From Streptomycetaceae bacterium MP113-05 (GTDB lineage Bacteria; Actinomycetota; Actinomycetes; Streptomycetales; Streptomycetaceae): a DNA stretch of 32,513 nt. Positions 15,118 through 28,236 of this stretch are shown here, one piece after another; position 1 is the first letter of the stretch, and each line of letters begins with the position of its first letter. The position numbers and the translations under genes were made by a program. A model generated the notes under the pieces. The model was not told the DNA's origin. It made no database searches and was given only the letters and a program-made list of their open reading frames with translations. Where the stretch lies: the NCBI GenBank assembly GCA_000497405.1, contig KI547046.1, forward strand, positions 262,933 to 295,445, read 5' to 3'.

Positions 15118-16521
15118 TCACCCCCCGGACCACGCCGAACGCCGCCGCAGACCGAACGACGTGAACGCCGCACGCCCCGGCAACGGAAACACCTCCTTCC
15201 CCGACACCCCGTTCAGAATCGCGGCACTCCGGTACGCACCCAACCCCAGATCCGGTGCCCCCACCCCGTGCGAATGCCGCTCACCGTTCTGCACGAACAC
15301 CCCGCCCGACACCGACCGGTCCAGAACCATCCGGAACCCGCCGTCAACCAGCGGACGGCCCGCCGCATCCCGCTCCACCTGCGGCCCCAACGCCGCCAGC
15401 AACCGGTCCGCCGGCCGCTCCCGGTAACCCGTCGCCAGCACCACCGCATCGGTCACCAGCCGCGACCGCTCACCCTGCTCCGCATGCTCCAGGTGCAACT
15501 CCAACCGCGACGACCCCAGCCGCCCCGCCGTACGCACCGCCACCCCCGGCGTCACCACCACATCCGGCCACCCGCAACGCACCGCACGCCCGTACAGCTC
15601 GTCGTGCACCGCGGCCAGCGTCCCGTGATCCACAGCCTTGTGCAGCTGCCACTGCCGCGACAGCAACTCGTCCCGCACCCGCTCCGGCAGACGGCGGAAA
15701 TACTGCATGTAGTCCGGCGTGAAATGCTCCAGCCCCAGCTTGCTGTACTCCATCGGCGCGAACGCCGCACTCCGCGTCAACCAGTGCAGACGCTCCCGCC
15801 CCACCGGGCGCGCCCGCAACAGATCCAGGAACACCTCCGCACCCGACTGCCCCGACCCCACCACCGTCACGTGGCCCGCCGCCAGCAGCCGCTCCCGATG
15901 CGACAGATACTCCGCCGAATGCACCACCGGAAGCGACGGCGCCCCCATCAACGGCCGCAACACCTCCGGCACATGCGGCGCAGTACCGATCCCCAGCACC
16001 ACGTTCCGCGCATACGCCCGGCCCAATGCCAACGCCTCCCCCGACCCGTCCAGGCGCGTGAAGTCCACCTCGAACAGCTCCCGGTCCCCGTTCCACCGCA
16101 CCGCGTCCACCTGATGCCCGAAACGAAGACCACCGCCCACCTCGTCACCTGTCGGCTCGCCCGCCGCCGCCAGGCCCTCGCACACCCACCGGCAGTACGC
16201 GTCGTACTCCACCCGCTCGATGTGGAATCGCTCGGCGAAATAGAACGGGAACAACCGCTCCTTCGCCCGCAGAAAACTCAGAAACGACCAACGGCTCCCC
16301 GGATCCGCCAACGACACCAGATCCGCCAGAAACGGCACCTGCAACGTCGCCCCGTCCACCAGCAGTCCCGGATGCCACGAGAACGACCCCTGCTGCTCGA
16401 ACACCGCCCACCGCAACCCCGGCACACCGTCCGCCAGCGCACCCAAGGACAGATTGAACGGCCCGCAACCCACTGCCGCGACATCCAGTGGCCCCTCCGT
16501 CTCCCGCACGGCCCCCGTCAC
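15118..16521 (-). CDS. L-lysine/diamine N-hydroxylase, siderophore type
   Basis: FAD- and NADPH-dependent N-hydroxylating monooxygenase of the IucD/DesB/SidA family, which makes the hydroxylamine precursor of hydroxamate siderophores. The 467-residue product has the FAD motif GCGPFNLSLGA (from residue 18), the family stretch FSWHPGLLVDGATLQVPFLADLVSL, the NADPH motif VVGSGQSGAEVF near residue 222 and the late ATGY motif (VVLATGYRERP). The GTG start overlaps the decarboxylase stop in a GTGA, so the two are translationally coupled. Given the partner, a diamine such as cadaverine is a likelier substrate than free lysine, but this is inference. No acyltransferase or NIS synthetase gene is adjacent, unlike in desABCD. 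Confidence 0.9.
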   Translation of the reverse strand: MTGAVRETEGPLDVAAVGCGPFNLSLGALADGVPGLRWAVFEQQGSFSWHPGLLVDGATLQVPFLADLVSLADPGSRWSFLSFLRAKERLFPFYFAERFHIERVEYDAYCRWVCEGLAAAGEPTGDEVGGGLRFGHQVDAVRWNGDRELFEVDFTRLDGSGEALALGRAYARNVVLGIGTAPHVPEVLRPLMGAPSLPVVHSAEYLSHRERLLAAGHVTVVGSGQSGAEVFLDLLRARPVGRERLHWLTRSAAFAPMEYSKLGLEHFTPDYMQYFRRLPERVRDELLSRQWQLHKAVDHGTLAAVHDELYGRAVRCGWPDVVVTPGVAVRTAGRLGSSRLELHLEHAEQGERSRLVTDAVVLATGYRERPADRLLAALGPQVERDAAGRPLVDGGFRMVLDRSVSGGVFVQNGERHSHGVGAPDLGLGAYRSAAILNGVSGKEVFPLPGRAAFTSFGLRRRSAWSGG

Positions 16522-17963
16522 ACGCCCACCGTCTCGGACACCACACCGCTCACGGGCACACCCGTCGCCGCGTCCCGCACCAGCTTCACCAGCGAAGCCA
16601 GCTCATCCCGTCCCACATACGGATGCAGCACCGTCACCTTCAGCCACAGTCGCCCGTCCAGCGACGCTCGCCCCAGGACCGCCCGTCCCTCCCCCAACAA
16701 CCGCCGCCGCACCCCGGCCACCACCGCATCCGGCACCCCCACCGGACGGAACAACACCGTCGACAACTCCGGCCACGACCGCAACTCCAGCCCTGCGTCC
16801 TCCGTCACCAACCCGGCCAGCGACCCCGCCGCCGCACACACCCGCTCCACCAGCTCCGCCAACCCCCGGCGACCCAACGCCCGCAACGTCACCGCGATCT
16901 TCAACACATCCGGCCGCCGCGTCGTCCGCAACGACCGCCCCAGCAGATCCGGCAGGCCCGCCTGTGCGTCGTCATCCGCGCTCAGATACTCCGCCCGGTG
17001 ATCCAGCACGCCCAGATCCGCCGCATCCGGCACCACGAACAACCCCGCCGCCACCGGCTGCCAGCCCAGCTTGTGCAGATCCACCGTCACCGAATGGGCC
17101 CGCTCCACACCCGCCAACCGGCCCCGCAACTCCTCACTGAACAACAACGGTCCCCCGTACGCCGCATCCACATGCAACCGCCCACCACACCTCGTCACCA
17201 CATCCGCCAACTCCGGCAGTGGATCCACCACACCCGCGTCCGTCGTCCCCGCCGTCGCCACCACCAACGCCCGGCCCCCCGAACCCGCCAACGCCGCCTC
17301 CACCGCCACCGGATCCAGCACCCCACGAGGCGCCGCCACCACCACCGGCGCCGACATCCCCAGCAACCACGCCGACCGCCGCACACTGTGATGCGCGTTC
17401 TCCCCGCACACCACCCGCACACCGTCCCCCAGCCGTTCGCGCGCCAGCAGCACACCCAGCTGATTCGACTCCGTCCCACCCGTCGTCACCAGCGCATCAG
17501 GCCCAGCACCCGCCCCGCCCCCGCACACCAGCCGCGCCAGCTCCCCGCACACCAGCGACTCCAACTCCGAAGCCGCCGGAGCCTGATCCCACGAGTCCAT
17601 CGACGGATTCAACGCACTCGCCGCCAGATCGGCCGCCGCCGCCACCGCCAACGGCGGGCAGTGCAGATGTGCCGCACACAACGGATCCGCCGGATCCGCC
17701 GCCCCCTCCGCCAACGCCCGCACCAACGCACCCAACGCCGGCTCCGAACCCACCCCCCACTCCGGCAGCACCTCACCCACCGAAGAACGCAACCGCGCCG
17801 CCACCGCCTCCGGCCCTCCCGGAGGCAACGGACCACACCGCGCACCCGCCCCCGCAGCCAACGACTCCAACACCGAAGCCACCAGCGGACGCAACGCGGC
17901 AGACCCCCCGGAACCGCTCGCGAGCACAGCAGAAGCCGCCACAGAAACAGCAGAAACAGACAT
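16518..17963 (-). CDS. PLP-dependent group II decarboxylase, DesA-like
   Basis: Group II amino-acid decarboxylase related to lysine decarboxylase DesA and diaminobutyrate decarboxylase. Paired with the hydroxylase it probably makes cadaverine or a similar diamine for a siderophore. The 481-residue product has LHCPPLAVAAAADLAASALNPSMDSWDQAP, TTGGTESNQLGVLLARE (PLP phosphate region), HVDAAYGGPLL (Asp to the pyridine nitrogen) and the PLP lysine K298 in VDLHKLGWQP. The first 40 residues are Ala/Ser-rich and unlike typical DesA. ATG 17963 follows GGGAG at about eleven bases. An iron box lies 31 bases upstream, so expression should rise when iron is low. Lysine, ornithine and diaminobutyrate cannot be told apart as substrates from sequence alone. 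Confidence 0.88.
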   Translation of the reverse strand: MSVSAVSVAASAVLASGSGGSAALRPLVASVLESLAAGAGARCGPLPPGGPEAVAARLRSSVGEVLPEWGVGSEPALGALVRALAEGAADPADPLCAAHLHCPPLAVAAAADLAASALNPSMDSWDQAPAASELESLVCGELARLVCGGGAGAGPDALVTTGGTESNQLGVLLARERLGDGVRVVCGENAHHSVRRSAWLLGMSAPVVVAAPRGVLDPVAVEAALAGSGGRALVVATAGTTDAGVVDPLPELADVVTRCGGRLHVDAAYGGPLLFSEELRGRLAGVERAHSVTVDLHKLGWQPVAAGLFVVPDAADLGVLDHRAEYLSADDDAQAGLPDLLGRSLRTTRRPDVLKIAVTLRALGRRGLAELVERVCAAAGSLAGLVTEDAGLELRSWPELSTVLFRPVGVPDAVVAGVRRRLLGEGRAVLGRASLDGRLWLKVTVLHPYVGRDELASLVKLVRDAATGVPVSGVVSETVGV

Positions 17964-20704: not shown

Positions 20705-21481
20705 TCAGTACTTCGGTCCGACGTGTGCCTCCATCAGTGCGACGGAGGCCTTCCGCGCGATCGACACGTTGAACGGGTCGTGCCCGCGCGCCAGTACCGT
20801 CCACTCCACGCCCACCCTCCGGAGGGTGTCGGTGAAGATGCCCCTGATGTCGTCGGACTTGTTGGTGAAGAAGTACCGGGGGTACTCGAAGCGCTTCTTC
20901 TTCCCGGCCACCATGCGAGTCGTCCAGTTCGTGATCCGGCAGCCGTCCGAGTGGATCAGCCCCCGGATCAGCTCCCACGGATGGGCATCCACGATCTCCT
21001 CCTGCCACGCCTCCAGGGCGATGTGCCGGTCATGCTTCTTCCCGGGGCCGTGCTGCGGAAAGAGGCACGGCCAGTGATTGCTGTAGGCGCCGACCGACAC
21101 GTGACCGGCCAATTGAACTCGCTGTACGCGATTCCCGGGGCGGAGCGTCTTCACCGCCCGGGCGCATTCCTCGATGAGTCCCGGGCAGGCGTCGGCGCAC
21201 GCGATCCGCAGCGAGAAGGTCCGCCCCAGTCGGCTTACGCAGCCGTCGCCGAGGTAAAGGCCGAGGAGATAGGAGTAGGCCGCGCCGGGTGGTTTCGTGC
21301 CACCGCATCGAGGGCATTCCGGCGCTGACCGTTCGGGAAGTTCTCCGCGGCGCGCACGATCACGGTGCAGCCAGACTCCCACTGTCCTGGCCGGGATGCC
21401 GAACGCTCTGGCGGCGTCCACATTGCGAGCACCCCTACGGACCATCGCTATCGCTTTTGTGCGTACCTCAAGGCTGTGCAT
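20705..21481 (-). CDS. Free-standing LAGLIDADG endonuclease-like protein with helix-turn-helix
   Basis: A 258-residue protein resembling a LAGLIDADG homing endonuclease. Residues 7-40 form a resolvase-like helix-turn-helix (IAMVRRGARNVDAARAFGIP, ARTVGVWLHRD). C56 and C59 form a CPRC knuckle. Two LAGLIDADG-type helices follow, YLLGLYLGDG (71-80) and LIRGLIHSDG (171-180), exactly 100 residues apart, each ending in the acidic residue that binds catalytic metal. This is the single-chain, two-motif architecture. Stretches of the gene checked by eye are about 57-68% GC, below the mid-70s of pepN, suggesting transfer. It lies 91 bases downstream of the tRNA on the same strand. Activity is unproven; it could instead be a domesticated DNA-binding protein. 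ATG 21481 has only CAGG as a possible Shine-Dalgarno. Confidence 0.75.
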   Translation of the reverse strand: MHSLEVRTKAIAMVRRGARNVDAARAFGIPARTVGVWLHRDRARRGELPERSAPECPRCGGTKPPGAAYSYLLGLYLGDGCVSRLGRTFSLRIACADACPGLIEECARAVKTLRPGNRVQRVQLAGHVSVGAYSNHWPCLFPQHGPGKKHDRHIALEAWQEEIVDAHPWELIRGLIHSDGCRITNWTTRMVAGKKKRFEYPRYFFTNKSDDIRGIFTDTLRRVGVEWTVLARGHDPFNVSIARKASVALMEAHVGPKY

Positions 21482-21505
21482 GACCTGAGCGTGGCCCGAT
21501 TCGGA

Positions 21506-21526
21506 TGCCCGGAGTGGCGATTCGAA
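21506..21526 (-). repeat. Degenerate copy of the tRNA 3' end
   Basis: The plus-strand 21506-21526 aligns with 21573-21592 (T-arm and 3' acceptor strand of the tRNA) as TGCCC, one mismatch, GAGTGG, one inserted C, GATTCGAA. That is 19 identities over 20 aligned bases. The two copies are in direct orientation with 46 bases between them. Beyond these limits the similarity stops. This is what an att remnant or a partly deleted tandem tRNA copy would look like. Confidence 0.6.
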
Positions 21527-21538
21527 GGTTCGTTCACC

Positions 21539-21559
21539 TCAAAGTGGGCAAACCTTTGA
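21539..21559 (-). terminator. Possible terminator of the tRNA transcript
   Basis: TCAAAG (21539-21544) and CTTTGA (21554-21559) are inverse complements around a 9-base loop, starting 14 bases beyond the tRNA 3' end on the minus strand. The stem is short and AT-containing, so support is moderate. Confidence 0.4.
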
Positions 21560-21572
21560 AGCGAAGGCAGAG

Positions 21573-21646
21573 TGCCCCGAGTGGGATTCGAACCCACACT
21601 GTCGGTGGTTTGAGCACCGCTTCTCTAACCGTTGGAATACCGGGGC
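21573..21646 (-). tRNA. tRNA with CAA anticodon (nominally Leu), short variable loop
   Basis: The 74-base gene folds fully: acceptor GCCCCGG with TCGGGGC (last pair G:T) and discriminator A73; D-arm stem TTC/GAA with an 11-base loop containing GGTT; anticodon stem CGGTG/CACCG with loop CTCAAAC, giving anticodon CAA (codon UUG, Leu); a 5-base variable loop ACAGT; and T-arm GTGGG, TTCGAAT, CCCAC. CCA is not encoded. Bacterial tRNA-Leu is normally class II with a long variable arm, which this gene lacks, although the 3-bp D-stem with 11-base loop and A73 are Leu-like. Charging identity is therefore uncertain. It diverges from the response regulator gene. Confidence 0.88.
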
Positions 21647-21740
21647 CTTAGAAAGCAAGGTTGATGACCACCCGCTGTGTCCCCACCATACAGGACACCG
21701 ATAGGCTCGGAGGTCCCACCGTGCGGAAACGAGGACCCCA

Positions 21741-22403
21741 GTGAGCACCGCGGACGCCCCCGAGCCCACCGAACCCGCCGAAGCCGAAGCGGCGGGCGAC
21801 GCCCACGTGCCGCCGCAGACGACGCGTGTCGTGATCGCGGAGGACGAGGCCCTGATCCGGATGGATCTCAAGGAGATGCTGGAGGAGGAGGGGTACACCG
21901 TCGTCGGGGAGGCCGGGGACGGGCAGACCGCGGTCGACCTGGCGCGGGAGCACCGTCCCGACCTGTGCATCCTCGACGTGAAGATGCCGGTGCTCGACGG
22001 CATCTCCGCCGCGGCGAAGATCGCGGAGGAGTCGATCGCGCCGGTGCTGATGCTGACCGCGTTCTCCCAGCGGGAGCTGGTGGAGCGGGCGCGGGACGCG
22101 GGTGCGATGGCGTATCTGGTGAAGCCCTTCAGCAAGAGCGACATCGTGCCGGCGATCGAGATGGCGGTGTCGCGGTTCACGGAGCTGCGGGTGCTGTCGC
22201 AGGAGGTCGCCGACCTGGAGCAGCGCCTGGAGACGCGGAAGCTCGTGGACCGTGCGAAGAGTGTGCTGCAGACGCAGTACGGGTTGGCGGAGCCGGCGGC
22301 GTTCCGATGGATTCAGAAGACGTCGATGGACCGGCGGTTGTCGATGGGGCAGGTGGCTCAGGCCGTGGTCGAGGATGCTGAGGAGAAGAGGCGGCAGCAG
22401 TAG
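21741..22403 (+). CDS. pdtaR: ANTAR-domain response regulator, PdtaR-like
   Basis: Response regulator acting on RNA: ANTAR domains bind paired hexanucleotide-loop hairpins and prevent transcription termination. The 220-residue product has an acidic, Pro/Glu-rich N-terminus (residues 1-27), a receiver domain with E34/D35, phospho-acceptor D79 in CILDVKMPVLDG, the Thr switch in LMLTAFS and the lysine in YLVKPFS. A coiled-coil linker (VLSQEVADLEQRLETRK) and the C-terminal ANTAR helices (VDRAKSVLQTQYGLAEPAAFRWIQKTSMDRRLSMGQVAQAVVED) follow. GTG 21741 follows GAGGA with a 5-base spacer. No histidine kinase is adjacent; in mycobacteria the partner PdtaS is encoded elsewhere. It converges with the liv operon across a shared terminator. 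Confidence 0.9.
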   Translation: MSTADAPEPTEPAEAEAAGDAHVPPQTTRVVIAEDEALIRMDLKEMLEEEGYTVVGEAGDGQTAVDLAREHRPDLCILDVKMPVLDGISAAAKIAEESIAPVLMLTAFSQRELVERARDAGAMAYLVKPFSKSDIVPAIEMAVSRFTELRVLSQEVADLEQRLETRKLVDRAKSVLQTQYGLAEPAAFRWIQKTSMDRRLSMGQVAQAVVEDAEEKRRQQ

Positions 22404-22468: not shown

Positions 22469-23181
<713 letters not shown>

Positions 23182-23185
<4 letters not shown>

Positions 23186-24141
23186 TTCTTCTCCCCCTCC
23201 TCTGGTGCGTTCTCGGTGGTGCCGGCGGCGACGGTCGGGGTTTCGGGTTCGGCTGCTGGTGCGGTGTCGGCCGCGTCGTGGTGGGCTTCCGCTGCGGCTA
23301 CCTCCTTGGCCTCGTCCTCGCCGGGTTCGCCTTCGAAGGGGGTGCCGAGGTAGGCGGCGACGACGCGTTCGTCGCTCTGTACCACCGCGGGCGTTCCTTC
23401 GACGAGTTTCTGGCCCTGGACGAGAACGGCGACGCGGTCGCACATGTTGAAGATGAACCGCATGTCGTGCTCGATGACGAGGACGGCGATGCCCTGGTCG
23501 CGGACGGCGAAGACCAGCTCCTGGGTGGCCTGGGTCTCCTGCGGGTTCATGCCGGCGGTGGGCTCGTCGAGGAGCAGCAGGCCGGGGTCGGAGGCCAGCG
23601 CCCGGGCGATCTCCAGTTTGCGTTGTTCGCCGTAGGGGAGGTTGCGTGCGAGGTGGTCGCGTTTGGCGGCGAGGCCGGTGAACTCGAGGAGTTCCATGGC
23701 ACGGGCTTCGGAGGCCTGCTCGGCCTTGCGGAAGCCGGGGCCGCGCAGGAGCGCGGACCATAGGCCTTCTTTGGTGCGGGTGTGGCGGCCGACGAGGACG
23801 TTTTCGAGGACGGTCATGTTGGCGAAGAGCCGGATGTTCTGGAAGGTGCGGGCGACGCCAGCTTTGGTGACCAGATGGGACTTGGGTGGCAGGACCGTGC
23901 CTTTGTAGGACACCTTTCCTTCGGTGGGGATGTAGAGCCCGGTGAGGCAGTTGAAGAAGGTGGTCTTACCGGCTCCGTTGGGGCCGATGAGCCCGACGAT
24001 TTCTCCGCTGTCGACGGTGAGTTCGACGTCGCGGACTGCGGTGAGTCCGCCGAAGCGCATGGTGACGCCGGAGGCGTGGAGGATGTTCTCGCCGGTGCCG
24101 GGTGTGCTGTTCGGGGGCGCGGTCTTGGTGGTGGTCGTCAT
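23182..24141 (-). CDS. livG: Branched-chain amino-acid ABC transporter ATP-binding protein
   Basis: Second ATPase of the LivFGHMK importer. The 319-residue product has Walker A GPNGAGKTT, Q-loop ARTFQNIRLF, signature LPYGEQRKLEIARAL (Tyr-Gly-Glu in place of Ser-Gly-Gly, common in LivG), Walker B LLLLDEP and switch VIEHDMRFIF. A polar, Thr/Pro-rich leader of about 17 residues precedes the domain. After residue 264 comes an unusual acidic Ala/Glu-rich tail of about 55 residues, not needed for the ATPase fold. E. coli LivG is about 255 residues, so the tail accounts for the extra length. ATG 24141 lies seven bases after the livM stop. Confidence 0.95.
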
Positions 24142-24148
24142 GGTGTGA

Positions 24149-25954
24149 TCACGCCTCCGTCTTACTGAGGCCGGGGTGTTCGGGGACGTCGAGCTGTCCG
24201 GTGTCGTGGAATTCGAGTTTCTTGCGGCGGTCGGCGATGAGGCCTTCGGGGCGGAAGCGCATCAGCAGGATGAGCGCGATGCCGAACAGCAGCAGTTGGT
24301 ACTCGGCCATGAACTCGAGTTTCTCCGGGATGAGGTACAGCAGTGCGGCGCCGATGAGGGGGCCGCTGACGGTTCCCATGCCGCCGAGGATGACGGCGGC
24401 GAGGAGGAAGGCCGAGTTCGGTGGGACGGCTTCGACAAATTTGTACTGGGTGGGGGTGACCGTGTAGGTGACGTGGGCCTGGACGGTGCCCGCCATGCCG
24501 GCGAGGGCGGCGCCGAGGGCGAAGGCCATCAGCTTGAGCCGGAACGTGTTGATGCCCATGGCCTGCGCTGCGGTCTCGTCTTCGCGGATGGCTACCCAGG
24601 CGCGTCCGATGCGGGACTCGTCGGAGCGTTTGAACACCAGGACGACGATGGCGGTGAACAGGAGCATCAGCAGGTAGTAGTTGGCGAATCGGCCGATCTC
24701 GAAGCCGAGGAGGGAGTGTTCCTCGCCGAGGTTGTAGCCGAAGACCACCAGTTCGGGGATGTCCGGAATGCCGTTGGGCCCGTTGGTGATGTCCGGGCCC
24801 GAGGTGCCGTCGAGGTTCTGCATGGCGATGCGGAAGATCTCGCCGAAGCCGAGGGTGACGATGGCGAGGTAGTCGCCGCGCAGTCGCAGGGTGGGGGCGC
24901 CTATGAGGACGCCGAAGACCAGGGACGCGGTGATGCCGGTGAGGACGGCGGCCCAGAACGGGAAGTGGACGTCGAAGGGGGAGTAGGGGGAGCCGGACAC
25001 GATGGCGGCGGCGTAGGCGCCGACGCCGAGGAAGGCGACATAGCCGAGGTCGAGGAGTCCGGCGAGGCCGACCACGACGTTGAGGCCGAGGGCGACGGTG
25101 GCGAAGATCAGGATGTAGGTGCCCAGGGCGGCGTTGGCGTCGCTGGCCTGGGTGAAGGGGAACAGGAACGCGGCGATGAAGGCCGAGGACACCGTGATGT
25201 TGCGGTGTTTGGCGGTGATCATGCCCAGACGCTGGTTGAGTCCGGCGCGGGAGATGGAGGCGATGGTGGTGCCGGCGAGGATGAGGAAACCGATGAAGAG
25301 TTCGCCGTACGAGGTGCCGATGCCGTAGGAGAAGACCCAGAGGCCGGTTGCCACGGCGACGCTGATGCACAGCAGTTCCTGCCAGGGGCGGAGTGCCCTG
25401 GTGGGTGCGTGCGGCTCGGGTGCCTTGAAGCTGTGCAGGAAGCGGCTGCCGACGCCGGTGCCGGACGTGCCGCGGCGCGGTGTGTCCGCGGGGAGGCCGA
25501 GTGTGCCCACGACGGTGATGAGGGAGGCGGCGGCAGCGAAGAGACCGCCGGGCTCGAGGTTGACCAGTCCGCCGAGTTGGGCGGTGATGGCGGCGGCGGC
25601 GTACCAGGTGACGCCGAGGGTGCCGAGTGCCGCGAGCAGGGCGGGGCTGTGAGTTCCGCCGGGGGTCAGCCAGCGCAGTCCCTTGATGCCGTATCCGGAG
25701 AGCAGGAAGGCGAGGGTGAGGAGCGAGCCGACGAGGGTGAGGACCTGGAGTCCTCCGGGGTAGCCGTAGACGGTGAGGTCCCCGGGGAAGGCCTGGGTCC
25801 AGGTCCAGGCGAGGAAGGCGCTGGCGGAGGTGGCGGCGGCACCCGCGGTGGCGATGAGCCGTGCGGTGCCCTCCGGCAGCGGGACGGTGCCCGGGGTGGG
25901 GGCGGTGGGTGCGTCCTTCTCGGGCGCCGGGGTCGGTTGTGTGGTGGTGGTCAT
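24149..25954 (-). CDS. livM: Branched-chain amino-acid ABC transporter permease, extended
   Basis: Permease subunit of the LivFGHMK importer. The C-terminal half, from ALGTYILIFATVALGLNVVVGLAGLLDLGYVAFLGVGAYAAAI through RLRGDYLAIVTLGFGEIFRI to ILGGMGTVSGPLIGAALL and LLMRFRPEGL, is a standard LivM permease. The 601-residue product is much longer than E. coli LivM (about 425). The N-terminal 270 residues hold a Pro/Thr-rich cytoplasmic start and about five extra hydrophobic segments, with TPRRGTSGTGVGSRF between two of them. ATG 25954 is used; a GTG at 25963, in frame and overlapping the livH stop as GTGA, may be the true start given the same arrangement elsewhere in the operon. The stop lies seven bases before livG. 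Confidence 0.92.
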   Translation of the reverse strand: MTTTTQPTPAPEKDAPTAPTPGTVPLPEGTARLIATAGAAATSASAFLAWTWTQAFPGDLTVYGYPGGLQVLTLVGSLLTLAFLLSGYGIKGLRWLTPGGTHSPALLAALGTLGVTWYAAAAITAQLGGLVNLEPGGLFAAAASLITVVGTLGLPADTPRRGTSGTGVGSRFLHSFKAPEPHAPTRALRPWQELLCISVAVATGLWVFSYGIGTSYGELFIGFLILAGTTIASISRAGLNQRLGMITAKHRNITVSSAFIAAFLFPFTQASDANAALGTYILIFATVALGLNVVVGLAGLLDLGYVAFLGVGAYAAAIVSGSPYSPFDVHFPFWAAVLTGITASLVFGVLIGAPTLRLRGDYLAIVTLGFGEIFRIAMQNLDGTSGPDITNGPNGIPDIPELVVFGYNLGEEHSLLGFEIGRFANYYLLMLLFTAIVVLVFKRSDESRIGRAWVAIREDETAAQAMGINTFRLKLMAFALGAALAGMAGTVQAHVTYTVTPTQYKFVEAVPPNSAFLLAAVILGGMGTVSGPLIGAALLYLIPEKLEFMAEYQLLLFGIALILLMRFRPEGLIADRRKKLEFHDTGQLDVPEHPGLSKTEA

Positions 25955-25959
25955 CAGTA

Positions 25960-26886
25960 TCACGCTCGATCCGCGACGCGTTCGCCGAGCAGGCCCTGGG
26001 GGCGGAGCAGGAGGACGAGGATGAGCAGGGCGAAGGCCCAGACGTCCTTCCAGCTGCCGCTGCCGAACTGGCTCATGCCGGGTACGTTTTCGATGTAGGC
26101 GGTGGCCATGGCTTCGGCGAGGCCGAGTACGACGCCGCCGATCATCGCTCCGTAGATGTTGCCGATGCCGCCGAGGACGGCGGCGGTGAAGGCCTTCAGG
26201 CCGGCGATGAAGCCCATCTTGAACTGCACCTCGCCGTACTTGAGCCCGTGGGCGATGGCGGCGATGGCGGCGAACGCGGAGCCGATGGCGAAGGCGGTGA
26301 CGATGATGCGGTCGGTGTTGATGCCCATCAGCTTGGCGGTGTCCGGGTCCTGCGAGGTGGCCTGCATGGCGCGGCCGGTGCGGGTCTTGGACACGAAGAG
26401 GCCGAGGGCGATCATGCTGATGGGGGCGGCGAGGAACAAGTAGAGGTCGCCGCGGCCGATGGTGAAGGCGCCGAAGTCGAAGGTTCCCTGGAACTGGGGG
26501 AAGGAGCGTGACTTGGTGCCGTCGGGGTAGAACGCCCATATCGCCTGCTGGAGGGCTATGGAGAGGCCGATGGCGGTGATCAGTGGCGCCAGGCGGGGCC
26601 CGCCGCGGAGCGGCCGGTAGGCGAAGCGTTCCGCTCCGATACCGATGAGCACGGAGCAGACCATGGCGAAGAGGAGCATGAGGGGGAGGGCGAGCAGCAG
26701 ACTGGTCCCCTCGGGGAGGGCGAGCCAGACGGTGAGTGCGCCGAATCCGCCGATCATGAATATCTCGCCGTGGGCGAAGTTGATGAGCTGGACGATGCCG
26801 TAGACCATCGTGTAACCGACTGCGATGAGTCCGTATAGCCCGCCGAGTAGCAGGCCGTTGGCGAGTTGCTGCGGCAGATCGTTCAC
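25960..26886 (-). CDS. livH: Branched-chain amino-acid ABC transporter permease
   Basis: Partner permease to LivM in the branched-chain importer. The 308-residue product starts with LPQQLANGLLLGGLYGLIAVGYTMVYGIVQLINFAHGEIFMIGGF, the very conserved LivH opening. GRAMQATSQDPDTAKLMGINTDRIIVTAFAIGSAFAA is the cytoplasmic coupling region, and VLGGIGNIYGAMIGGVVLGLAEA comes near the end. Length and about eight membrane segments are normal. GTG 26886 follows GGAGG (26898-26894, minus strand) with a 7-base spacer. A perfect 16-bp hairpin separates it from livK upstream, and livM follows with overlap or near-contact. Confidence 0.95.
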   Translation of the reverse strand: MNDLPQQLANGLLLGGLYGLIAVGYTMVYGIVQLINFAHGEIFMIGGFGALTVWLALPEGTSLLLALPLMLLFAMVCSVLIGIGAERFAYRPLRGGPRLAPLITAIGLSIALQQAIWAFYPDGTKSRSFPQFQGTFDFGAFTIGRGDLYLFLAAPISMIALGLFVSKTRTGRAMQATSQDPDTAKLMGINTDRIIVTAFAIGSAFAAIAAIAHGLKYGEVQFKMGFIAGLKAFTAAVLGGIGNIYGAMIGGVVLGLAEAMATAYIENVPGMSQFGSGSWKDVWAFALLILVLLLRPQGLLGERVADRA

Positions 26887-26918
26887 CGCGGGGCCTCCGG
26901 AGGGATGGGTGTCAGAGC

Positions 26919-26954
26919 GGCTCCGCGGGGGCGCTGTGGCGCCCCCGCGGAGCC
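26919..26954 (-). terminator. 16-bp intercistronic hairpin between livK and livH
   Basis: The two 16-base arms (26919-26934 and 26939-26954) are perfect inverse complements around a 4-base loop TGTG. It lies 43 bases after the livK stop and 32 bases before the livH start, all one strand. Such a hairpin would partly stop transcription or stabilise the livK mRNA 3' end, giving more binding protein than permease. Confidence 0.85.
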
Positions 26955-26997
26955 AGTGGGTGGCAGGACGGGCGTGGTCGCCCGGGTGTGGGTCGGG

Positions 26998-28236
26998 TCA
27001 GCCTTCGAAGGTGCCGGTCTTGGCGGGCACGTGCGCGCCGTCCTTCACCTCGTAGATGGTGAGCTGCTTGTTGGTGTTGTCGCCGAACTCGTCGAAGCCG
27101 ACCTGTCCGGTGACGCCCTCGAAGCTGACGTCCTGCATGGCCTCGGTGACCTGCTTGCGGGCCTCTTCCATGTCCTCGGCGAGGCCGTCGTCGCTGTCGG
27201 CGACGGCCTTGACGGCCTCGATGACGGCCCAGGTGCTGTCGTAGGAGTAGCCGCCGTAGGCCTCGTACGCCTGGTCGTAGCCGGCCTCGTCGTAGGCCTT
27301 GATGAAGTCCTGCGCGGAGTCGAGGTCCTCGACGGGTGCGCCGACGGAGCTGGCGAGGTCGCCTTCGGCGTTCTTGCCGGCGATCTTGATGTATTCGGCG
27401 CTGAAGAGGGCGTCGCCGCCGACGACCGGGATGTCTGCGCCCGCGCGCTTGATCTGGTCGGTGAGGGGAGCGCCGGCGGGGTACTCGCCGCCGTAGTAGA
27501 CGAAGTCGGCCTTGGAGCCGGCGACCTTCGTGGCGACCGCGGAGAAGTCCTTGTCCTCCGGGTTGACGTGGTCGGTGCCGACCACCTTGCCGCCGATCTT
27601 CTTGAAGCGGTCCCTGAAGGTGGTGGCGAGGCCGGCGCCGTAGGTCTTCTTGTCGTCGATGACGTAGACCTTCTTCAGATCCTGCTCGTTGAACATGTAG
27701 TCGGCGGCGTAGGGGCCCTGGATGGCGTCGGTGGTGGAGGTGCGGAAGTAGGTGTCGTGGGGGCGCTGCTTGTCGCCCTTCTGCCAGTCGACGCCCTGGG
27801 TGAGGGAGGGGTTGGTGTTGGCAGGGGACACCTGGACCATGCCGGCCTTGGCGTAGACGGGGGCCATGGACTGGCCGACGTCGGAGTTCAGCGGGCCGAC
27901 GGCGCCGATCATCTTCTCGTTGCCGACGAACTCGGCGGCGTTCTGCTGGCCGGTGGAGGCCTGCGCCACGTCGTCCTTGGCGACGAGCTTGAAGGTGACG
28001 CCGTCGACGACGTTGTCCTTGTTGGCGGTCTTGACCGCGAGTTCGGCGGAGTTCTTGATGCCGATGCCGAGCGCGGACAGGTTGCCGGTGAGCGGCGCGT
28101 CGAGACCGATCTCGAAGACGCGGTCGCCGCCGCCCTTGTCGCCTCCGCCCGAGTCGTCGCGGGATCCGCAGGCGGTCAGCACGAGTGCTCCGGTGGTGAC
28201 CGCGGTGGTGAGCATGAGCAAGGATCGCTGGCGCAC
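26998..28236 (-). CDS. livK: Branched-chain amino-acid ABC transporter substrate-binding lipoprotein
   Basis: Extracytoplasmic receptor that delivers branched-chain amino acids to LivHM. The 412-residue product has a lipoprotein signal peptide (MRQRS, hydrophobic core, lipobox LTAC with C23 to be lipidated by Lgt) and a Gly/Asp-rich linker. A type I periplasmic-binding fold (Peripla_BP_6) follows, with IGLDAPLTGNLSALGIGIKNSAELAV, GAVGPLNSDVGQSMAPVY and AADYMFNEQDLKKVYVIDDKKTYGAG. GTG 28236 follows AAGGA with about a 7-base spacer. First gene of the minus-strand liv operon. The true ligand (Leu/Ile/Val or a related amide) cannot be fixed from sequence. Confidence 0.94.
   Translation of the reverse strand: MRQRSLLMLTTAVTTGALVLTACGSRDDSGGGDKGGGDRVFEIGLDAPLTGNLSALGIGIKNSAELAVKTANKDNVVDGVTFKLVAKDDVAQASTGQQNAAEFVGNEKMIGAVGPLNSDVGQSMAPVYAKAGMVQVSPANTNPSLTQGVDWQKGDKQRPHDTYFRTSTTDAIQGPYAADYMFNEQDLKKVYVIDDKKTYGAGLATTFRDRFKKIGGKVVGTDHVNPEDKDFSAVATKVAGSKADFVYYGGEYPAGAPLTDQIKRAGADIPVVGGDALFSAEYIKIAGKNAEGDLASSVGAPVEDLDSAQDFIKAYDEAGYDQAYEAYGGYSYDSTWAVIEAVKAVADSDDGLAEDMEEARKQVTEAMQDVSFEGVTGQVGFDEFGDNTNKQLTIYEVKDGAHVPAKTGTFEG

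Follow-up and report, generated by a model that had tools for sequence, protein, structure and literature searches.

A tRNA-Leu(CAA) gene without a long arm and an adjoining predicted LAGLIDADG gene: a probable homing cassette in Streptomycetaceae

How can a gene with a leucine anticodon do without the long variable arm that places bacterial tRNA-Leu in class II, and why does this gene stand beside a predicted homing endonuclease? Both questions are raised by the window analyzed here, a stretch of 32,513 nucleotides from Streptomycetaceae bacterium MP113-05, in which a tRNA-Leu(CAA) gene of class I form is accompanied by an open reading frame, here called LAG (Table 1). We propose that the armless tRNA, which is likely charged with leucine and likely a main reader of UUG, and the predicted LAGLIDADG gene probably constitute a homing cassette that would replace the tRNA gene of relatives.

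The tRNA-Leu(CAA) gene and the meaning of UUG

ARAGORN identified a sole tRNA in the window, a tRNA-Leu(CAA) at 21572-21646 on the minus strand, and a match to RF00005 at 21646-21573 (48.8 bits with a gathering score of 29, E 1.1e-7) was the window's single Rfam match at the gathering score. Read arm by arm, the gene has an acceptor stem of 7 bp, a D-stem of 3 bp with an 11-nt loop, an anticodon stem of 5 bp, a T-stem of 5 bp, the anticodon loop CTCAAAC, and A73. The complete cloverleaf with anticodon CAA, A73, and a 5-base variable loop that an earlier sequence-only reading had described is confirmed by ARAGORN, Rfam, and this arm-by-arm reading. The acceptor and T-stems (7/5) depart from the 8/4 or 9/3 arrangement by which allo-tRNA is defined in the excerpted text of PMC7609411.

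Table 1. Features of the locus, in positions of the window
Feature	Positions	Strand	Basis
Class I tRNA-Leu(CAA), 74 nt, CCA not encoded	21573..21646	-	ARAGORN, Rfam RF00005, orthologues with covarying stems
Anticodon CAA	21610..21612	-	ARAGORN position 35; sequence
Variable loop ACAGT, 5 nt, in place of long arm	21598..21602	-	ARAGORN; sequence
LAG, predicted homing endonuclease of 258 aa with HTH and two LAGLIDADG motifs	20705..21481	-	Pfam, motifs, AlphaFold2, Foldseek
Spacer of 91 nt, tRNA to LAG	21482..21572	-	Sequence; relatives' flanks
tRNA leader with presumed promoter, facing away from the response regulator gene	21647..21740	-	Flank comparison
Upstream motif copy CCTTGCTTTCTAAG	21647..21660	-	Flank comparison of class I loci
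Downstream motif copy CCTTCGCTTCAAAGG, imperfect palindrome	21553..21567	-	Flank comparison of class I loci
Response regulator with ANTAR, conserved flank	21741..22403	+	Pfam Response_reg, ANTAR
Peptidase M1 gene, other flank in this genome	18134..20680	-	Pfam Peptidase_M1

When the window tRNA was folded alone, the minimum-energy structure was not a cloverleaf (z -1.66; 13 of 200 shuffled sequences folded at least as well), and therefore the case for a tRNA fold is carried by comparative evidence. The class I loci, 60 in number, supplied an alignment of 39 distinct sequences, in all of which the pairs of the acceptor stem, anticodon stem, and T-stem are standard, except for pair 31-39, which is standard in 24 and A-C in 15. 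Many compensatory changes occur in the anticodon stem, and the tertiary 15-48 pair covaries, being A-T in 26 sequences, G-C in 12, and G-T in 1. Because the stems and the 15-48 pair covary, a degenerate tRNA is disfavored; judged by this alignment, the class I sequence drifts across relatives yet stays a tRNA.

The residues connected with leucine identity are retained as well. A73, A14, and the D-loop GG are each present in all 39 distinct class I sequences, which also hold the 15-48 Levitt pair, so that the leucylation elements A14, GG, and 15-48 are in place; the window gene itself joins a leucine anticodon to A73, as bacterial tRNA-Leu does, and has a 5-nt loop where the long variable arm of class II would be. 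According to the excerpted text of PMC9976931, A73, A15-U48, G18G19, and A20a contribute to leucylation in E. coli, while the long arm is dispensable. Since E. coli uses A15-U48, the G-C form of the 15-48 pair is a variant. It had been suggested from the sequence that the 3-bp D-stem, the 11-base loop, and A73 are Leu-like, and this is borne out by the D-arm, A14, GG, and 15-48 pair, which are likewise of leucine type. By these features, class I tRNA-Leu(CAA) looks like a working leucine tRNA, likely charged by the ordinary LeuRS.

The host genome (5.96 Mb, 98% complete) contains 58 Rfam tRNA matches over the cut-off, and ARAGORN was run on all 58 loci. Its leucine tRNAs comprise two GAG genes, one each of CAG, TAA, and TAG, all of them long-armed, and the CAA gene of the window; no second CAA gene, and thus no normal class II Leu(CAA), was found among these 58 matches. 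In the 120 kb around the locus (G000:C10:198346-318345), UUG codons aligned with leucine of three relatives, two of which have the class II tRNA, at 93 of 117, 110 of 134, and 102 of 133 positions. Two class II relatives aligned with each other gave 34 of 38 and 35 of 46, and the leucine share at UUG in this genome is about the same as that between class II relatives. The TAA tRNA may also read UUG via wobble, and therefore such alignments tell the meaning of UUG rather than which tRNA reads it. UUG was used at 5.88 per 1000 codons in the same 120-kb region and at 2.02-2.28 in the three relatives, that is, about 2.5-3 times more commonly here.

The sequence-only reading had left open several identities for this gene, and only the first of them, a tRNA-Leu that lacks its long arm, is upheld by the D-arm, A14, A73, the D-loop GG, and the 15-48 pair. 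That the body of another isotype had borrowed a CAA anticodon is disfavored, since the leucine identity positions are kept; mistranslation of UUG is disfavored by the single CAA gene and by the alignment of UUG with leucine against three relatives, and the same two observations speak against a non-translational role or an inactive gene.

Two tRNA classes at one chromosomal address

The gene is not peculiar to one strain. Orthologues were found in relatives, and a query with the window tRNA gave a near-full-length match of 72-93% identity in 10 of 24 genus relatives, among the matches listed. Classes were counted with exact patterns that separate a 4-5-base loop from a long loop, with ARAGORN applied to fetched loci only. 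Across 150 genomes of the genus, which is probably Streptomyces (LAG proteins of two of its genomes are 93% identical to proteins with Streptomyces as source), Leu(CAA) was assigned by pattern to class I in 96, to class II in 52, to both in none, and to neither in 2. The class II pattern matched 56 genomes, of which four also matched class I and were dropped as not tRNA-Leu: G089 and G165, in whose loci no tRNA-Leu(CAA) was found, and G071 and G101, which were judged by eye. The two whole genomes in which neither pattern found a Leu(CAA) are G048 and G095, the latter only 78% complete. The premise of the earlier reading that bacterial tRNA-Leu is class II therefore fails for the CAA isoacceptor in this genus, given the class I pattern in 96 of the 150 genomes. 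The control, tRNA-Leu(CAG), had at least 87% identity in at least 145 of the same 150 genomes, among the matches listed.

In the genus loci fetched, class I and class II copies share one address, and the ANTAR response regulator, which we take to be pdtaR-like, adjoins the tRNA in every one of them. On the other side, most genus relatives have another gene, presumably pyruvate-kinase-like, where this genome has the peptidase M1 gene. Further off in the window, Pfam indicates a siderophore-like pair of lysine/ornithine monooxygenase and PLP decarboxylase at 15118-17963, and branched-chain amino acid ABC transporter genes at 22469-28236.

The leader and 5' flank of the tRNA differ between class I and class II copies. 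A consensus promoter scan of the leader region found none, and a consensus scan of the window's 21482..21572 stretch found no terminator-like site; the spacer of many relatives contains a terminator-like hairpin. A motif like CCTTCGATTC occurs on both sides of most class I copies in the genus, the downstream copy being an imperfect palindrome that ends in AAGG; it was not seen at the class I loci L099 and L190, nor at class II copies.

Class I leucine tRNAs of other kinds were also observed. The loci L054:1499-1575 (G009) and L057:330-404 (G038) hold short-loop tRNA-Leu(TAA) and tRNA-Leu(CAG), and thus arm loss is not confined to CAA. In family f21 (L349, L351, L353) the class I Leu(CAA) is built on another body, with acceptor GGCCCGG, and its variable region looks like that of a class II tRNA from which the arm was removed; these genes may have shed the arm independently.

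LAG and the exchange of the tRNA gene

LAG, which the sequence-only reading had not mentioned and which gives the locus its interest, lies on the same strand as the tRNA, 91 bases downstream, with the helix-turn-helix at its N-terminus. The Pfam matches of the window protein to HTH_23 and LAGLIDADG_3 are weak, at or below the curated cut-offs, and LAGLIDADG_3 was matched at E <= 0.001 by 28 of 48 LAG members. Both motif aspartates, D78 and D178 (counting from the residue after the initial Met), are invariant in all 48 aligned LAG proteins, which gives LAG the two motifs with acidic residues of LAGLIDADG homing endonucleases. The structure predicted by AlphaFold2 (pLDDT 90.7) has the LAGLIDADG fold, and its top Foldseek matches are LAGLIDADG homing endonucleases (best I-Tsp061I, E 2.2e-7). 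Eleven hand-chosen pairs gave dN/dS values of 0.11-0.17, by which measure LAG is under purifying selection. The protein is predicted to cut DNA.

LAG also has the patchy presence and the broken copies of a homing endonuclease. Of 37 same-genus genomes, 17 have a full-length copy, 8 have one that is partial or interrupted, and 12 gave no match; across the bacterial class LAG was detected in 62 of 296 genomes, in nine families. Tandem LAG, two copies at one locus, was noted at L089 (G052), G327:C1, and G345:C7. An origin from phage or plasmid was considered and set aside, as neither the phage collection nor the plasmid collection yielded a relative. LAG-like proteins form a large group: of 7997 candidates that were scored, 7841 reach E <= 1e-5. 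Judged by the best 120 of these, most carry the annotation "helix-turn-helix domain-containing protein" or "hypothetical protein".

The address of LAG is a tRNA-Leu gene. A tRNA-Leu gene lies within 400 nt of LAG in 91 of 92 fetched loci (CAA in 86, TAG in 5), and at the remaining locus the contig ends 98 nt from LAG; a fixed address beside the presumed target is again what characterizes a homing endonuclease. These loci were taken one per genome or record from LAG searches, with 2 contributed by a scan of named genomes, and G035 and the Actinospica durhamensis record are probably one genome, leaving at most 91 distinct. Three LAG-positive genomes (G013, G032, G041) stand outside the 92, and in two of them LAG adjoins the tRNA, at L036 and L051. 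Three arrangements of LAG and tRNA-Leu were seen: on the same strand, on opposite strands (f21), and beside another isoacceptor (f6). In f6 (L174, L346, L347, L350, L355) a LAG relative lies beside tRNA-Leu(TAG), at another locus and in opposite orientation. The opposite orientation in f21 and the other locus in f6 indicate that LAG tracks the tRNA gene and not a chromosomal region.

Seven families gave no LAG match in the wider searches. Of these, f20 received a search of its own, in which none of its 35 genomes had LAG (the search having no positive control inside f20), and one identical class I stretch is common to 19 of the 20 f20 genomes listed; this uniformity fits a tRNA that would be stable where the endonuclease is absent. 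Over all seven families, a hand count found the minority class in 2 of 52 genomes, among the matches listed.

Trees were then compared with tRNA class. An unlinked piece of rpoB from 60 of the 150 genomes, a non-random sample of 47 with intact LAG and 13 others, gave a tree with 21 class changes, where shuffled labels gave a mean of 20.1 and 369 of 500 shuffles were as low; class on the rpoB tree is scattered like shuffled labels. With the 47 intact-LAG genomes alone, 19 changes were counted (shuffled mean 15.9; 496 of 500 as low), and hence close relatives in this non-random sample differ in class more than shuffling gives. On the LAG tree of the same 47 genomes there were 5 changes as opposed to a shuffled mean of 15.9 (0 of 500 as low), and on a LAG tree of 98 rows from many families 17 as opposed to 32.1 (0 of 500). 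A pdtaR tree of the 47 genomes agreed with the rpoB result, with 18 class changes where shuffled labels averaged 16.1 (455 of 500 shuffles as low). A pdtaR tree of 111 loci that took in other families had 29, where shuffling gave about 37 on average (1-5 of 500 shuffles as low), and class is thus weakly clustered once other families are included. Class follows the LAG tree, not the species tree.

Two LAG clades, read off the tree by hand with 4 of the 47 genomes that fell outside both left out, have class I to class II ratios of 19:1 and 2:21 (Fisher 5e-9), the rule being broken in 3 of 43 genomes. Of the independent pairs drawn from the rpoB tree, 10 changed class and clade together, none changed them in opposition, and 2 did not differ (median p 0.002). 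Although the window tRNA is class I, the LAG beside it clusters, weakly, with the clade linked to class II.

Pairwise distances among the 37 genus loci with all three markers point in the same direction. Distances of the flanking genes correlate with each other (r 0.65) rather than with the tRNA (0.00 and -0.02), whereas LAG and tRNA distances correlate at r 0.58, and 5' flank distances correlate better with the tRNA (0.70) and LAG (0.61) than with either flanking gene (0.19 and 0.19). Within each class, LAG and tRNA distances have r of 0.01 and 0.08, and therefore the link is seen at the level of class only. LAG also correlates weakly with one flank (pdtaR, r 0.16, p 0.003).

Close pairs, hand-picked from the rpoB tree, localize the difference. 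In eight pairs that differ in class, flanking proteins are 89-99% identical, LAG 54-77%, and the tRNA 54-66%; in four same-class pairs the tRNA identity is 100, 67 (G153/G080), 80 (G140/G009), and 81%. The flanks would limit the replaced stretch, from promoter to LAG, to about 1.1 kb. Exchange of the tRNA between strains is, on these comparisons, well supported.

Homing, rival explanations, and known systems

The conflict between trees and the replaced stretch fit intronless homing, by which LAG may be copied into cognate alleles, and would fit ordinary recombination too. We infer that this exchange involves cleavage of the rival tRNA-Leu allele by LAG. In this model, a strain without LAG's own type would have its tRNA-Leu allele, or DNA close to it, cleaved by LAG, and repair from the incoming copy would bring in promoter, tRNA, and endonuclease together. 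The recipient would keep a working but different tRNA-Leu(CAA), leaving UUG readable, and the new tRNA would both resist the nuclease and restore UUG reading. More tentatively, and with some doubt, we extend this model to a home-and-rescue drive in which two LAG lineages each destroy the other class of the sole tRNA-Leu(CAA) and repair the locus with their own resistant class, causing repeated flips. If true, this would explain why tRNA-Leu(CAA) is variable and tRNA-Leu(CAG) constant, as well as the class differences between close relatives, and loss of the long arm would be tolerated, perhaps favored, as a resistant state.

The main rival of homing is that ordinary homologous recombination exchanges the tRNA locus, while LAG is a passenger for which the spot behind a tRNA-Leu gene is a safe home. 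Consistent with this are the class changes in families without LAG (the 2 of 52 genomes above), the lack of correlation between LAG and tRNA distances within a class, and the existence of genus genomes of both classes without LAG. However, replacement is limited to the tRNA-LAG stretch between near-identical flanks, tRNA-Leu(CAG) has no such scatter among the matches listed, LAG accompanies tRNA-Leu in each of three arrangements, and f20, whose 35 genomes yielded no LAG, has a uniform class I stretch in 19 of 20 listed genomes. We therefore regard a passenger role as unlikely.

It might also be supposed that LAG is a domesticated regulator of the tRNA gene, comparable to the LAGLIDADG-HTH transcription factor WhiA, each LAG type suiting one promoter type, which would accord with its HTH domain, the purifying selection on it, and the class-specific 5' flanks that follow it (r 0.61). 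A regulator would not be expected to be patchy, with broken and tandem copies, nor to keep both motif aspartates invariant, and many genomes keep the tRNA without LAG; this explanation is very improbable. We give even less credence to the idea that repeated in-place loss of the long arm produced the classes as local versions without exchange. The differing class I body of f21, suggestive of a separate loss, and the class I Leu(TAA) and Leu(CAG) found elsewhere lend it something, but within the genus a change of class is accompanied by changes in acceptor stem, 5' flank, and LAG clade, and close relatives differ across the entire tRNA (54-66% identity), which disfavors in-place loss as the source of the mixed classes there. 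Least credible of all is a tRNA charged with some non-leucine amino acid that would mistranslate UUG codons, for which an unusual body and, in the excerpted sources, the precedent of tRNA-ProX, a family of Streptomyces tRNAs that mistranslate other codons (PMC10365949, PMC11415595), could be cited, since no other CAA tRNA was found among the 58 Rfam matches, UUG aligns with leucine and the leucine positions are kept, UUG is commoner here (5.9 vs. about 2 per 1000 codons in three relatives), and none of the 22 window ORFs scanned with Pfam has a synthetase domain.

Taken together, the homing cassette remains our preferred reading, and the locus suggests that a leucine tRNA can lose the arm that defines its class and yet remain the only CAA isoacceptor across much of a major genus, and so opens leucine identity in the absence of that arm to tests in cells. 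If homing is true, a selfish endonuclease in bacterial chromosomes would have a core tRNA gene as its cargo and at the same time as its rescue, making the cassette a naturally occurring analogue of home-and-rescue drives and a source of fast tRNA evolution independent of codon demand, and a function would be offered for the large group of LAG-like proteins, whose adjacency to tRNA-Leu was examined at 92 loci. Among the papers listed by searches of the open-licence PMC literature, none described a short-arm tRNA-Leu(CAA) next to a LAGLIDADG gene.

Several known systems share single elements with this locus. Human mitochondrial tRNA-Leu(UUR), which in the excerpted text is recognized via A73 and A14 (PMC9976931), is armless like the window tRNA, but it is organellar and is not known to be linked to an endonuclease. 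tRNA-ProX of Streptomyces and Kitasatospora resembles our case in being an odd tRNA within the same bacterial group, yet it is described, in the portions of the reports drawn on here, as a proline body with foreign anticodons and a ProRS gene alongside (PMC10365949, PMC11415595), whereas the window tRNA unites a leucine body with a leucine anticodon and has no synthetase domain in the 22 scanned window ORFs. WhiA, so far as the excerpted material describes it, likewise combines an HTH and a LAGLIDADG-type domain in a single bacterial protein; by contrast, LAG keeps both motif aspartates and is patchy. The order of the domains in WhiA differs from that in LAG.

Phages also carry relatives of the tRNA: 23 records, 22 at 60-80% identity and one at >=99%. 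The 74-nt tRNA-Leu(gag) of Mycobacterium phage Bonray is 77% identical to the window tRNA and, at L363:1501-1649, neighbors an annotated tRNA-Leu(caa) of 75 nt, both being of class I size. The Bonray genes, however, belong to a phage tRNA array, and a search of the phage collection turned up no LAG relative. In Mycobacterium, a horizontally acquired tRNA cluster with an HNH homing gene includes an extra short-variable-loop tRNA-Leu(TAG) (PMC6582537). As far as the excerpted account goes, such clusters are large and contain extra copies with the normal isoacceptor alongside, whereas at the LAG locus one gene is replaced in place.

The nearest known case, by analogy, is SegB, a GIY-YIG endonuclease of phages T4 and T6. 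The excerpted texts state that it sits in a tRNA gene region, cuts within tRNA genes, and favors inheritance of its own tRNA region by intronless homing, SegF being likewise named (PMC2988022, PMC13096335). As in the case of LAG, this is a free-standing endonuclease gene adjoining tRNA genes. The LAG locus differs in that it lies in bacterial chromosomes, encodes a LAGLIDADG fold predicted to cut DNA, and has as its presumed cargo the sole CAA leucine tRNA gene, of which two structural classes are exchanged; relative to SegB, what would be new is this combination of bacterial chromosomal setting, endonuclease fold, sole CAA leucine tRNA as cargo, and exchange of structural class.
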